Shown here piece by piece: positions 1-39,275 of a DNA stretch of 42,475 nucleotides. Each line of letters begins with the position of its first letter. Positions within the stretch are counted from its first letter, which is position 1. Source of the stretch: a virus; the IMG/VR virus record IMGVR_UViG_3300025245_000002, positions 1-42,475 of that record; one strand, 5' to 3'. The position numbers were made by a program, and so were the translations under genes. The notes beneath the pieces are model-generated. The model ran no database searches. It saw nothing but the letters and a program-made list of their open reading frames with translations, and was not told where the DNA came from.

Positions 1-225
1 GTCTTGCATCGGATGGCGCGACAGGATGGCCACGCCGTTATAGGTTTTCTGGCCGCTGAACACCACCTGGTAGCCCATTTCCTCGATTTCCTTGACCGGA
101 AACTTGTCGTCGGTGAGCTTGGTTTCCTGGATGCACAGCACGTCCACCGGGTTTTCGCCCAGCCATTTCGTAACGTGCGGCAAGCGAACGTTCAATGAGT
201 TAACATTCCAAGTGGCTAATTTCAT
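1..225 (-). CDS. xth: Exonuclease III, 5' part (host gene, runs off the window)
   Basis: Exonuclease III is the AP endonuclease and 3'-5' exonuclease of base excision repair. Only the first 75 codons are present. They start [10 protein letters not shown] and include the family's Asn7 and the metal-binding Glu34 in the motif IQETK, followed by the conserved segment around [20 protein letters not shown]. The ATG at 225-223 is the usual family start. The first 17 coding bases are the attL core, so the prophage lies directly upstream of the start codon and the gene keeps its full reading frame but has lost its native promoter region. Its 3' end is outside the window. Confidence 0.95.
209..225. 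other. attL core, 17 bp
   Basis: The sequence CAAGTGGCTAATTTCAT occurs here and again at 42349-42365 in the same orientation. The bases on either side differ between the two copies. The repeat covers codons 1 to 6 of xth on the minus strand, and the integrase gene lies just inside the other copy. This is the pattern expected of a tyrosine-integrase crossover site. Confidence 0.9.
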
Positions 226-1839: not shown

Positions 1840-1879
1840 GGAGCTATGCCTGCCGAGAGCGTTGGAATTGCTTAGGTGT

Positions 1880-1920
1880 AGTGACTCAGACTTGACCTGA
1901 CATTGGCTGTCAGATGGGTT
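1880..1920. repeat. Left inverted copy of the accessory-insert boundary repeat
   Basis: This stretch contains a small dyad, CTGACA-N5-TGTCAG. It is related as an inverted copy to 2617-2650 on the other side of the next gene: both read, in opposite directions, TCTGACAG and then GTCAAGTCTGAG with one substitution in CAC-adjacent bases. It also matches 20246-20269 on the opposite strand at 23 of 24 positions. It therefore belongs to a repeat family found at the edges of both accessory inserts. Confidence 0.65.
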
Positions 1921-2019
1921 AGAGTTCAACGTGGCTCGCTTCCGGCCGATAGTCGACGTCCAACAAGCTGCGTAGTTAGTCGGTTTTGTTATACCTGCAT
2001 CAGCACTAGGAGACAGACA

Positions 2020-2508
2020 GTGAAGCGCTTTATAGATGCAACAAAGTCGGCAGTGGCCGATCAAAACTGGTACGCGGCGCTGTCTCTTGCGCTTACAATG
2101 CCGGACATATGTGGCAGGCTCGAGAATCCGAAGGCGGGATCTCAAGCACGTTTTACAGCGTGGTTCGACAAATTCCTTCTTAAGCGCTACCAGATGAAAG
2201 TTGGACCAATGCGTGAGCTCCACACCTTTCTCTGTGGAGCGGATTGTTACGCACTTCGCTGCGCGTTTCTTCATCAGGGCGAGTTCGGAATCGATGATCA
2301 GCGTGCGCAACAAGCGTTAGAAAGTTTTCATTTCATTGCGCCTCGAACCGGTATGCTCGTTCACAACAACAAATTCAACAATATCCTCCAGTTGCAGGTG
2401 GACGTGTTCTGCGTTGATATATGTAACGGGGTGGAAGAATGGCAAGCGTCCGTCGCCGCCGACGCCGACATCCAAGCGCGGTTAGCTAAGCTTGCAACTA
2501 TCGGCTAG
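2020..2508 (+). CDS. HEPN-like small protein of unknown function, repeat-flanked cassette
   Basis: A 162-aa protein. The GTG start at 2020 is chosen because AGGAG sits 7 bases upstream; an in-frame TTG or ATG further upstream lacks a ribosome-binding site. The sequence starts MKRFIDATKSAVADQNWYAA. It contains the block CYALRCAFLHQGEF, in which Arg80 and His85 form an R-x4-H motif of HEPN type. The overall pattern (MPDICGRLE, RFTAWFDKF, then the R-x4-H block) looks like a conserved bacterial hypothetical family that I cannot name. It stands alone between two inverted repeats with its own spacer, like a self-contained cargo cassette. RNase activity is inferred only from the motif. Confidence 0.7.
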   Translation: MKRFIDATKSAVADQNWYAALSLALTMPDICGRLENPKAGSQARFTAWFDKFLLKRYQMKVGPMRELHTFLCGADCYALRCAFLHQGEFGIDDQRAQQALESFHFIAPRTGMLVHNNKFNNILQLQVDVFCVDICNGVEEWQASVAADADIQARLAKLATIG

Positions 2509-2616
2509 TTGTGAAGGATGGCCTTTAACCGATTCTTTGGGTGTACAGTCCCCGGCAAGCCGATGGCCGCCGCCAACGTTAAACATTCGAAGGGCAGCTA
2601 AGGGGCGTGAGCCGCC

Positions 2617-2650
2617 CCCCGTCTGACAGTCTCAGTCAAGTCTGAGCCAC
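2617..2650. repeat. Right inverted copy of the accessory-insert boundary repeat
   Basis: This reads CCGTCTGACAGTCTC and then AGTCAAGTCTGAGCCAC. The reverse complement of 1880-1920 reads CCATCTGACAGCC and, after a few extra bases, GGTCAAGTCTGAGTCAC. The two arms thus match over about 30 bp with a short indel and bracket the 2020-2508 gene. The stretch between that gene and this repeat (2509-2616) holds nothing else that I can call. Confidence 0.6.
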
Positions 2651-2656
2651 TAAAGC

Positions 2657-3559
2657 TTAGGAATCCGCGGTCTCCGCGCCAAGCGGATCTTCTGCTTGCA
2701 CCGCTTTGTCAATCGTATCGTTATACGTAGGTCGTTTGATTGTACGGAAAATCATGATAGGCGTAATGCCGTATCGCTCGGGCGGCCTGCCGAATGACTC
2801 GCGCATTCCCCGGACCATCGTTCGAATGCCCTCCTCGATCGTTTCGTTGAAGAGTTCTGAGTGATCATTGTTATAGATGTGATCTGGATACGCATCGACG
2901 ATGAACACCACCTGCCAAGTACCAGGAATGTCGACGCCAGTCTTAAACATCAAATCCTCAGGATTTACCAGCATGTATTCAGGCTTCAACGTAAACCAAC
3001 CGACGCCATCGAGACTGGCAACGCTTCCCTGAAGTGCATGTGGGAGGCGCTTAAGGATCTCGGCCATTTCGTTATAGGACTTCACCTCCGCTTGTTTTTG
3101 TTTTTGTTTTTGCTTTGGATTTGTGATGGCGGCTGTATTGGCCTCGGCAATAAAACCGCCCATATAGCTCCACATTTCGCGCATCATTCGTAGATCGACT
3201 ATCGAAATGAGGCCTTCGATCAAGCATAGCTCCCCGAGGTGTCCCATTCCTTTCCTGAGAAAGCCATGGGCGTATAGTGCGTCTAACGTTTCTTGTGGAC
3301 GACGGAAGGCTGGGTCGATTTGCATCTCTACCGTTTCTTCGGCCGATTTGCCTTGCTTTATTTTGCCTCCAAGCAGAGGAATGCCTAGTTGCAGGGTGCT
3401 GTCCTCTTGACCGCTCGACTTTGAGGAGTGTTTTGCCTGGGTGATTAGTCCATGCTCTGAGAGCTGGCTGTAGTAGTGTGCCAGTCGACTTGTGTCGACA
3501 TATAAATAGTCACAGAGGTATTCGACGCTTTGTGATTCTGGTGCCTCGTCTAATGGCAT
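2657..3559 (-). CDS. DUF6414-like protein, last gene of the leftward operon
   Basis: A 300-aa soluble protein. The start at 3559 (MPLDEAPESQSVEYLCDYLY) is chosen because GGG lies 6 bases upstream; a reading frame extends 20 codons further but begins without a ribosome-binding site. The N-terminal pattern of YLYVDTSRLAHYYSQL followed by a glycine/serine-rich stretch resembles DUF6414 proteins, a family of unknown function found in accessory regions. An octapeptide of alternating Lys and Gln (KQKQKQKQ) is coded by a hexanucleotide repeat at 3094-3112; changes in copy number there would stay in frame. The start overlaps the upstream 64-aa gene by 50 bp. The family call is moderate; the function is unknown. 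Confidence 0.65.
   Translation of the reverse strand: MPLDEAPESQSVEYLCDYLYVDTSRLAHYYSQLSEHGLITQAKHSSKSSGQEDSTLQLGIPLLGGKIKQGKSAEETVEMQIDPAFRRPQETLDALYAHGFLRKGMGHLGELCLIEGLISIVDLRMMREMWSYMGGFIAEANTAAITNPKQKQKQKQAEVKSYNEMAEILKRLPHALQGSVASLDGVGWFTLKPEYMLVNPEDLMFKTGVDIPGTWQVVFIVDAYPDHIYNNDHSELFNETIEEGIRTMVRGMRESFGRPPERYGITPIMIFRTIKRPTYNDTIDKAVQAEDPLGAETADS
3094..3112. repeat. Hexanucleotide tandem repeat (GTTTTT)3
   Basis: Three tandem GTTTTT units inside the DUF6414-like gene code for part of a Lys-Gln run on the minus strand. Because the unit is six bases, slippage would change the linker length without a frameshift. Confidence 0.8.
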
Positions 3560-3704
3560 CTTCGACCCTTTCTTGTTGTGCTTCGTTAGCTTGGCGCTTC
3601 TCGGCAAGGTCAGATGCAATAGTGTCCAGCAATGTTTCTTCTTCCGCGCGGGAGTCGGCGGCGTGCTTGCGACGTCGGAGGAATTTAAGAAATTTCGGTG
3701 CCAT
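3510..3704 (-). CDS. Small basic/acidic coiled protein, unknown
   Basis: A 64-aa protein starting MAPKFLKFLRRRKHAADSRA, with a strongly basic N-terminus and then a Glu/Gln/Arg-rich helical region likely to be coiled. The frame remains open upstream but lacks a plausible start. The ribosome-binding site here is weak. It overlaps the start of the DUF6414-like gene by 50 bp, so the two may be translationally coupled. No family is recognised. Confidence 0.45.
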   Translation of the reverse strand: MAPKFLKFLRRRKHAADSRAEEETLLDTIASDLAEKRQANEAQQERVEDAIRRGTRITKRRIPL

Positions 3705-13636: not shown

Positions 13637-13896
13637 AACAGGGTTATTAACAGGGGTTTTACAAACCCGGTACAGCGCAAAGCTAGCATTCATGCGGTGT
13701 TAACAGGGTTAACAGGGTTTGCAGGGGTTCCACGCGTGCGCGGGCGTATTTCTTAGATTACAGAAGCTGTAAGTTTTTTGATATGTGCGTGTAATCACAC
13801 CCTGTTAACCCTGTTAACCCTGTTAAGGCAAGCATTCATGCGGGTTTCAGCGTAACAGGGTTCAGTGAAGGCATGTAAAAGGTCTGTTCAACAGGA
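13637..13896. repeat. Iteron-like repeats, candidate replication origin
   Basis: The 306-base gap after the primase-helicase gene is full of the 9-bp unit GTTAACAGG. Two tandem units lie at 13699-13719 on the plus strand and three at 13800-13826 on the minus strand, with single AACAGG units at 13637, 13649, 13854 and 13890. A second direct repeat, AGCATTCATGCGG, is at 13685-13697 and 13831-13843. The inverted clusters are separated by an AT-richer stretch near 13750-13795. Iterons beside an initiator or helicase gene are typical of phage and plasmid origins. The inverted arrays could also form a long hairpin affecting transcription. Confidence 0.6.
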
Positions 13897-14549: not shown

Positions 14550-14580
14550 AAAGCCCGCCGCTGAGCGGGCTTTTCTTTTT
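14550..14580 (+). terminator. Rho-independent terminator before the late genes
   Basis: A 9-bp stem, AAAGCCCGC (14550-14558) with GCGGGCTTT (14565-14573), has a 6-base loop and is followed by TCTTTTT. It separates the early rightward operon from the late region and is a natural target for a Q-like antiterminator. Confidence 0.85.
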
Positions 14581-14582
14581 CC

Positions 14583-14598
14583 GTGCAGACGTCTGCAC
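14583..14598. repeat. 16-bp palindrome family, copy 3 (perfect)
   Basis: GTGCAGACGTCTGCAC lies between the terminator and the first late gene, in noncoding DNA. This copy is under no coding constraint, which favours a binding-site role. Confidence 0.9.
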
Positions 14599-14613
14599 TT
14601 CCCGGAGATCTAC

Positions 14614-19763: not shown

Positions 19764-20171
19764 TCAGAAATGCACGCATCTTCCGAAATATGCTACGTCG
19801 TTCTCAAGGAAAATAAATGGCTTACGTTGCTCTGGGGCATATTCTTTCACTACCAGGACAAATACGTTGGTGCCGGCGCCGAGACCTTGTTCGCGGCTCA
19901 TGGTTGTAACTACTTTAAACGAGTTTTCTGTAGATCCAGAATCAACGACCACAGGCCGTGTAATGAACGAGTTTTTCAAAACACCTGCCATCAAGCCTGT
20001 TCGACGCTCAACAGTAAACTCTTTTCCGACGAAGGTCTTGTTCCTAAATGCAACTTCCTTCGGCTCCGAATCGTCGGAAGACGCTATCCGGTTAATCGTA
20101 CATTTATAGTCTTGAGCATGTCCGTTGAGCGCTGCCATGACCAAGAAAAGTAGAAGAAGAGTTTTTTGCAT
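19764..20171 (-). CDS. Small secreted protein of the second insert
   Basis: A 135-aa protein. The start at 20171 gives a clear signal peptide (MQKTLLLLFLVMAALNGHAQ), cleaved after an Ala-x-Ala-like site. The mature part of about 115 residues is beta-rich and holds two Cys (YKCTIN and FGRCVHF) that could form a disulfide in the periplasm. The ribosome-binding site is weak. It follows the boundary repeat at 20246-20269 by 75 bases. No family is recognised. A periplasmic protein expressed from a prophage could alter the envelope or block superinfection; this is inference. Confidence 0.65.
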   Translation of the reverse strand: MQKTLLLLFLVMAALNGHAQDYKCTINRIASSDDSEPKEVAFRNKTFVGKEFTVERRTGLMAGVLKNSFITRPVVVDSGSTENSFKVVTTMSREQGLGAGTNVFVLVVKEYAPEQRKPFIFLENDVAYFGRCVHF

Positions 20172-20245
20172 GCGCAGATTTGTACAATTCAAAGCAACGA
20201 TGATGTGGCACGATTTAGCCGAAATCGACTCAAACGAACTGTATA

Positions 20246-20275
20246 CCATCTGACATCCAATGTCAGGTCTAGCTT
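20246..20275. repeat. Insert-boundary repeat, right edge of the second accessory insert
   Basis: The element contains a dyad, CTGACAT-CCA-ATGTCAG. Bases 20246-20269 match the reverse complement of 1894-1917 at 23 of 24 positions, although the two lie 18 kb apart. Both sit upstream of an accessory gene in the same relative orientation. Confidence 0.75.
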
Positions 20276-20340
20276 ACACTACGGCAAATAATCCATTGTA
20301 TCTCGCGTCTATCGGTGGCAGATCCAATTTGTAGGGCACA

Positions 20341-38578: not shown

Positions 38579-39099
38579 CGCGCGTCCTAAGCCGCCTGCA
38601 GGACGTAATCCTGCCGGCGTGGCTCAAGTGGGTGGCAATTGCTGCCCTTTGTGTGGCGATGTATGGCGTTGGCCGGCTGCACGAAGCCCGCCGCGGGAAC
38701 GAAGCAATGTCCGATTACCTGGCAGCACAAGCCGCGCGTACCGTGGTGATCGGGCGCGCTCAAACCAAACTCGTGGTGCAAACCGAAATCAAGTACCGCG
38801 ACCGCATCCAGAAAATTTACTTGAAGGGAGAAGTCATTGAGAAACAAGTTCCCATCTATGTCACTGCTGCTGATAACGCTGAGTGCCGTATTAACACTGG
38901 CTTCGTGCGGTCACATGACGCAGCCTGGGCCGGTGAGCCTGCCGGACCTGCCTCTGGTACTGACCGTGACGCCGCCGGAGTTTCGCTCGCTGAAGTCTCT
39001 GAAGCCAACGCCTACAACGCCAGAACGTGCCTCGCCTGGCGAGAATTAGCGTTGGGGCTGCGGGAGCATTACTTGAAGCAGCAGGAAATTTTGAAATGA
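38575..39099 (+). CDS. Rz-like i-spanin
   Basis: A 174-aa inner-membrane spanin subunit. One N-terminal membrane segment (about residues 16-33, LKWVAIAALCVAMYGVG) is followed by a periplasmic helical domain. It overlaps the endolysin by four bases. The Rz1 gene is wholly embedded in it in a different frame. Together they would fuse inner and outer membranes in the last step of lysis. Confidence 0.85.
   Translation: MTRVLSRLQDVILPAWLKWVAIAALCVAMYGVGRLHEARRGNEAMSDYLAAQAARTVVIGRAQTKLVVQTEIKYRDRIQKIYLKGEVIEKQVPIYVTAADNAECRINTGFVRSHDAAWAGEPAGPASGTDRDAAGVSLAEVSEANAYNARTCLAWRELALGLREHYLKQQEILK
38837..39049 (+). CDS. Rz1-like o-spanin lipoprotein embedded in Rz
   Basis: A 70-aa outer-membrane lipoprotein in the +1 frame of Rz. 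The signal segment SLLLITLSAVLTLASCGHMT ends in the lipobox LASC. The mature part is short and Pro-rich (PGPVSLPDLPLVLTVTPPEF), as expected for Rz1. A TTG start at 38837 is favoured by GGAG six bases upstream; an ATG at 38858 would also keep the signal sequence. Complete nesting within Rz is common in phages. Confidence 0.85.
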   Translation: MRNKFPSMSLLLITLSAVLTLASCGHMTQPGPVSLPDLPLVLTVTPPEFRSLKSLKPTPTTPERASPGEN

Positions 39100-39100
39100 A

Positions 39101-39116
39101 GTGCAGACGTCTGCAC
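39101..39116. repeat. 16-bp palindrome family, copy 5 (perfect)
   Basis: GTGCAGACGTCTGCAC starts one base after the Rz stop codon, in noncoding DNA. Together with the copy at 14583 it brackets the late genes. Confidence 0.9.
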
Positions 39117-39275
39117 ACAAATACATTCGAGCAATAAAGACAGAGCGCCTGGGCGAGCTGCGTCAACAGCACGTCCAGGCCTCAATACACTGAATGAGCA
39201 GTGAACCGAGCCAAGGCTCTGCACCCTCCGGAGGGCGGCAGAAGTCTAGCACAAAAAACTAATAAGGTTTACTCT
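39117..39275. other. Intergenic region between lysis and methylase genes
   Basis: There is no gene in these 159 bases. A hairpin CCTGG-to-CCAGG (about 39149-39180) and a perfect 12-bp palindrome CCCTCCGGAGGG (about 39225-39236) lie before the methylase. Either may end the lysis transcript. Confidence 0.45.

Follow-up and report, generated by a model that had tools for sequence, protein, structure and literature searches.

The unit at positions 1877–2654 of the window, the 42,475-nucleotide stretch of viral DNA analysed here, is very probably a non-autonomous mobile insertion cassette (MIC), in which two IS481-type (ISSod13-like) ends enclose one passenger gene. The unit is 778 bp long, with exact boundaries defined from the sequence, and contains a single gene on the plus strand. 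The imperfect inverted repeats of about 35 bp that the earlier note had placed around this gene are present, as two blocks pairing 1867–1896 with 2635–2664 (83% match) and 1894–1918 with 2618–2642 (76% match). A search for target-site duplications revealed GCTTAGG, an exact 7-bp direct repeat, abutting both ends of the unit, while tblastn revealed no IS481- or IS30-type transposase inside 1877–2654. The unit thus combines IS-related inverted ends, a passenger gene without a transposase and a duplication of IS length, as a MIC does, and falls outside the autonomous IS481 elements of the ISSod13 group, as it encodes no IS481 transposase.

Features of the unit, with positions numbered along the window
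Feature	Position	Strand	Basis
Left target-site duplication GCTTAGG	1870–1876		Sequence; identical to 2655–2661
Left end (L-end): 26-bp terminal inverted repeat TGTAGTGACTCAGACTTGACCTGACA and subterminal module	1877–1945	+	About 70-bp alignment with L-ends of unrelated cassettes
Subterminal palindrome CTGACA-ttggc-TGTCAG, probable transposase-binding repeat	1897–1913	+	Sequence; conserved in L-end alignment
Promoter-like CTGACA-N17-TAGAGT, directed toward cargo	1897–1925	+	9/12 consensus bases; conserved across L-ends
Cargo gene, 162 aa, phrog_18591, HEPN-like nuclease candidate	2020–2508	+	R80-x4-H85 invariant
Right end (R-end): diverged terminal inverted repeat TTTAGTGGCTCAGACTTGACT... and GC-rich module	2590–2654	-	Resembles other R-ends
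Right target-site duplication GCTTAGG	2655–2661		Sequence; holds stop codon of 2657–3619

We built a 26-bp end profile from elements outside the window and scored it across the whole window. The left arm at 1877 (+) reaches the maximum score of 27.8 and is the top match in the window, while the right arm at 2654 (-) scores 20.3, third in the window, a level at which 0.6 sites are expected by chance window-wide. With the right arm convergent, close by and accompanied by a 7/7 duplication, a chance match can reasonably be set aside. We found no cassette ends at about 90 homologous loci of the cargo family, so the passenger appears to come from a general family of prophage accessory genes, not normally cassette-borne, and to have been captured here. 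The same absence could be taken to mean that a chance inverted repeat surrounds an ordinary accessory gene, an idea to which we give almost no credence in view of the maximum left-end score, the convergent right end and the 7/7 duplication at the predicted boundaries.

The outer 26 bp of the window ends match ISSod13-like insertion sequences of the IS481 family. Matches of the left arm (59 bases) to plasmids are weak, yet have the same boundaries in unrelated genera, and several of them sit at the edge of IS481-annotated elements. Specifically, an Alteromonas element with such ends is 1202 bp long, is flanked by the duplication GTTCAGG, and encodes a transposase that has the Pfam domains of the IS481 family and passes the NCBIfam NF033577 cut-off, while an element of phage RCS47 is 1201 bp long, is flanked by GATTAAA, and is annotated 'ISSod13 family transposase'. 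In addition, genome G404, from the genus of the nearest xthA match, contains an intact IS481-type element with the 7/7 duplication CATTAGG. Duplications of IS481 elements are mostly 6 bp and range from 2 to 15 bp (PMC10045372), so the 7-bp subgroup falls inside the family range. A search of the viral collection with the short end piece TAGTGRCTCAGACTTGA returned two matches, both of them coincidences within coding sequence.

We then surveyed end pairs at loci drawn from pattern searches rather than from a random sample. The end pattern occurs in 37 viral-contig stretches, in 29 of 399 genomes of one order (reversed-pattern control, 0/399), and, in the family that surrounds the nearest xthA match, in 69 of 393 genomes (reversed-pattern control, 0/393). 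Matches to a consensus end were found in 1014 plasmid records and in 1191 of the 5426 E. coli genomes, autonomous IS copies included. Convergent ends paired at 0.3–6 kb spacing, with the flanks ignored in the choice, gave 55 distinct pairs. The flanks are 7/7 identical in 25 of these (mispaired control, 0.3%) and 6/7 identical in 7 (mispaired control, 0.8%). The match stops at exactly 7, the next base agreeing in 8/25 pairs on one side and in 5/25 on the other. The target motif is NNTNANN (47/50 at both fixed positions), and the GCTTAGG of the window fits this motif, which was derived from 25 elements.

Among the 25 pairs with 7/7 flanks, 9 contain an IS481 transposase or a piece of one, 1 (L194) contains an inserted IS30, and 15, including the unit of the window, are without any transposase. 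Since three of the surveyed loci (L018, L021 and L034) share one site, the 15 transposase-less pairs correspond to about 13 separate insertions. The same ends therefore border both IS481 elements and unrelated cassettes in many genomes, and the suggestion in the earlier note of a captured cassette or miniature mobile element with one cargo gene is borne out by the IS-family ends, the duplication, the lack of a transposase and the existence of sister cassettes. An IS30-type transposase beside the end in L009 and L194 was considered as a helper and rejected, as it belongs to an IS30 that has inserted there and is bounded by inverted repeats of its own. These IS30-type elements (L009 5057–6287, L194 5787–7040) lie at a similar spot just inside the right end of a cassette, possibly a preferred target. 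A match in E. coli E2348/69 near hsdR proved to be a 58-bp palindrome of two ends, with no cassette around hsdR. Two-end palindromes of 57–58 bp, with the interior almost absent, occur at L180 4001–4058 and L192 3431–3487 and represent the smallest possible unit of this kind.

The two ends have distinct architectures. Left ends of betaproteobacterial cassettes align over about 70 bp with little variation, CTGACA-N17-TAGAGT included, while right ends have a GC-rich module of their own that differs from the left-end module. The first cargo gene reads away from the left end in most units, L245 being an exception. In the window, the left end fits the L-end module well and the right end is diverged. 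The palindrome CTGACA-ttggc-TGTCAG is probably a transposase-binding repeat, and the left end, judged by its sequence, probably carries a promoter for the cargo. The overlap of the promoter-like motif with the palindrome, together with a third arm copy upstream of another accessory gene, might suggest that the arms are repeated phage promoter or operator sequences that regulate accessory genes rather than transposon ends. We regard this as very unlikely, because the arms abut a 7-bp duplication, because in many genomes such ends enclose IS481 elements or unrelated cassettes, likewise with duplications, and because the promoter-like motif is better viewed as belonging to the mobile end.

A solo, decayed L-end is present at 20215–20286 (-), between the terminase and portal genes and upstream of the minus-strand accessory gene 19764–20249, which encodes a secreted protein. 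No partner for the end at 20286 is recognisable downstream. Given its agreement with the extended left-end module, 20215–20286 is best taken for what is left of a second cassette. A separate 28-nt inverted repeat (1964–1991/19702–19729, 82%) lies near the cassette gene and near the second accessory gene and does not occur elsewhere among the fetched loci.

The right end of the window copy starts with TTTA and has a subterminal deletion, so this copy may be no longer mobile. This departure from consensus, and the failure to find a second copy of the window cassette, bear on whether the unit is a dead, immobile remnant, either an IS481-type element in which cargo replaced the transposase or a decayed cassette. 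We consider such a remnant unlikely, though clearly worth weighing; the existence of many transposase-less cassettes with good ends and perfect duplications speaks against it, as such units evidently have moved. For the cassette of the window, the empty site is predicted as ...GAATTGCTTAGGAATCC... with one GCTTAGG; a search with the joined flanks gave coincidences of 17 bases only, and searches of the viral collection gave no relatives of the flanking genes (DUF6414-like and TPR-like proteins).

For the unit we infer movement in trans, promoter activity, and nuclease and defence functions. The transposase would come in trans from an ISSod13-like element at another place in the cell, and would mobilise the unit by binding to its 26-bp ends and to the subterminal CTGACA/TGTCAG repeats. 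A 7-bp staggered cut would be made at NNTNANN, in this case where gene 2657–3619 on the minus strand has its stop codon; the insertion leaves that gene unbroken because the stop codon lies within the right duplication. The left end would provide the probable promoter for the cargo, which was probably drawn from the accessory genes that circulate in prophages; the cargo may serve as a HEPN-type RNase in phage exclusion.

ISSod13-like transposases are found in 28 of the 393 family genomes, and 19 of the 28 are among the 69 genomes with ends (Fisher p 9e-10), a co-occurrence that arises partly because the IS brings its own ends; at the threshold applied, 50 of the 69 have none. Over the outer ~26 bp, ISSod13-like elements agree with the cassettes, but their inner sequence differs, and we saw no autonomous element with the exact betaproteobacterial L-end and R-end modules. 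An ISSod13-like enzyme, for which the intact G404 copy is a candidate, is therefore a putative mover, and the helper could be another transposase.

The cargo gene has a GTG start, and its product has homologues with 67–69% identity in two Nitrosospira chromosomes and 109 viral relatives. R80 and H85 of the R-x4-H motif are invariant in 57 sequences, while one divergent homologue has K and Y at the motif. The chromosomal and viral homologues and the invariant R/H indicate that the gene is real. The structural model of the protein is confident (pLDDT 90.9) and mostly helical, and a fold search with the model gave two significant viral matches of unknown function and no significant match in the PDB, with AbiV, IRE1 and Cas13 at E 4–10. 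The protein has no sequence match in the PDB and matches neither Pfam HEPN nor the PADLOC defence models. The invariant R-x4-H motif supports the description of the gene as HEPN-like, for which the fold search gave no confirmation; a HEPN-type RNase is plausible on the basis of the motif.

Sister cassettes carry unrelated cargos. In particular, ThsB of Thoeris (PADLOC E 1e-122) is alone in a 952-bp cassette (L187 1501–2452) flanked by ACTGAAC in G401, a genome of the genus closest to the inferred host, and aadA14 on the Pasteurella plasmid pCCK647 lies in a 993-bp transposase-less unit flanked by GTTAAAC. Further transposase-less units with 7/7 duplications carry a VOC gene (825 bp), a GHKL ATPase gene (2382 bp) and a DUF4238 gene (2839 bp). 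PDC-M49A (E 3e-288) lies between ends whose flanks match 6/7, and DUF2971/PDC-S31 proteins, GNAT, lipocalin, T5orf172 and TauE are also encoded between ends. Some cargo-bearing pairs have imperfect flanks (L244 and L206, 6/7) or no flank match (L198 and L233). Defence genes are prominent among the cargos of these pattern-searched, non-random loci.

Three viral-contig cassettes (L018 247–1357, L021 9896–10930 and L034 2409–4324) occupy one site, are all flanked by the duplication CTATATC, and carry unrelated cargos. Their flanks are homologous (99%, 92% and 82% identical at best) and their ends are conserved over about 75–85 bp, beyond which the interiors have no detectable similarity. Likewise, the pairs L020/L029, L017/L038 and L027/L040 have flanks in common but not cargo. 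Cargo thus appears to have been swapped between conserved ends at occupied sites, which fits recombination; independent repeat insertion at one base in L018, L021 and L034 is less likely. Single genes between conserved ends, and different cargos at one site, are also what an integron-like cassette moved by a site-specific recombinase would give, a scenario that we judge very improbable, as transposons are characterised by target duplications, inverted ends and sites that are scattered, and as the unit encodes no recombinase.

Beyond the cassette, positions 1–224 (-) of the window belong to the end of an xthA-like gene of the chromosome. The window thus starts in host DNA, with the prophage boundary immediately to the right of this segment. 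Our inference of the host genus comes from a 209-base match to xthA, 81% identical, at the left end of the window. A TPR-like and HEPN-like gene pair at 534–1726 (phrog_17809 and phrog_5176) adjoins the cassette but lies outside its ends. An inverted repeat of TTAACAGGG units, 93–96% complementary, is present at 13700–13826, and the palindrome GAAGTGCAGACGTCTGCAC occurs at two distant positions, 14578–14601 and 39098–39121, possibly as a regulator site.

Mobile insertion cassettes are already known as a kind. In the literature searched, which included few subscription journals, we found no earlier description of IS481-type cassettes with passenger or defence genes, and neither a standard left-end module nor cargo turnover between such ends was found described. 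The chances seem to us about even that Proteobacteria, their plasmids and their phages share a large, standardised system of cassettes, bounded by IS481-type ends, that have a promoter but no transposase. On this reading, a cassette would insert with a 7-bp duplication and could later trade its cargo through recombination between conserved ends, so that genes for defence and accessory functions become interchangeable. Cassettes of this kind suggest a concrete route, open to testing, for the passage of single genes of defence (ThsB, PDC-M49A and DUF2971 proteins) or resistance (aadA14) among phages, plasmids and chromosomes. The 26-bp inverted repeat, the 7-bp duplication at NNTNANN and the L-end module together provide a search key for cassette genes missed by annotation, and genes between such ends become candidates for defence roles not yet described.

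Anti-phage defence hotspots in prophages hold variable accessory genes at fixed phage positions; here, by comparison, the variable part is bounded by IS481-type ends at four sites. ISSod13-like insertion sequences share with the cassettes the outer 26-bp end and the 7-bp duplication at NNTNANN, but are about 1.2 kb long, encode a transposase and have other subterminal sequence. As far as the account in PMC2266710 goes (citing Chen et al. 1999 and De Palmenaer et al. 2004), the MIC231 mobile insertion cassettes resemble the window unit in having IS-type inverted ends, a passenger gene, no transposase and presumed movement in trans by a related IS. They differ in that IS231 is an IS4-family element of Bacillus, whereas the present cassettes have IS481/ISSod13-type ends, 7-bp duplications and conserved L-end modules of about 70 bp, and reside in Proteobacteria and their phages and plasmids. 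The qnrS2 mobile insertion cassette element on Aeromonas plasmids likewise has a gene, for resistance, between inverted repeats without a transposase, its repeats being reported as 22 bp (PMC5444012). The aadA14 unit on pCCK647 has the same kind of ends and duplication as the window unit and differs in its resistance cargo and plasmid location. Finally, a system of the kind proposed here would resemble integron cassettes somewhat in its exchange of genes, but would use the machinery of transposons.
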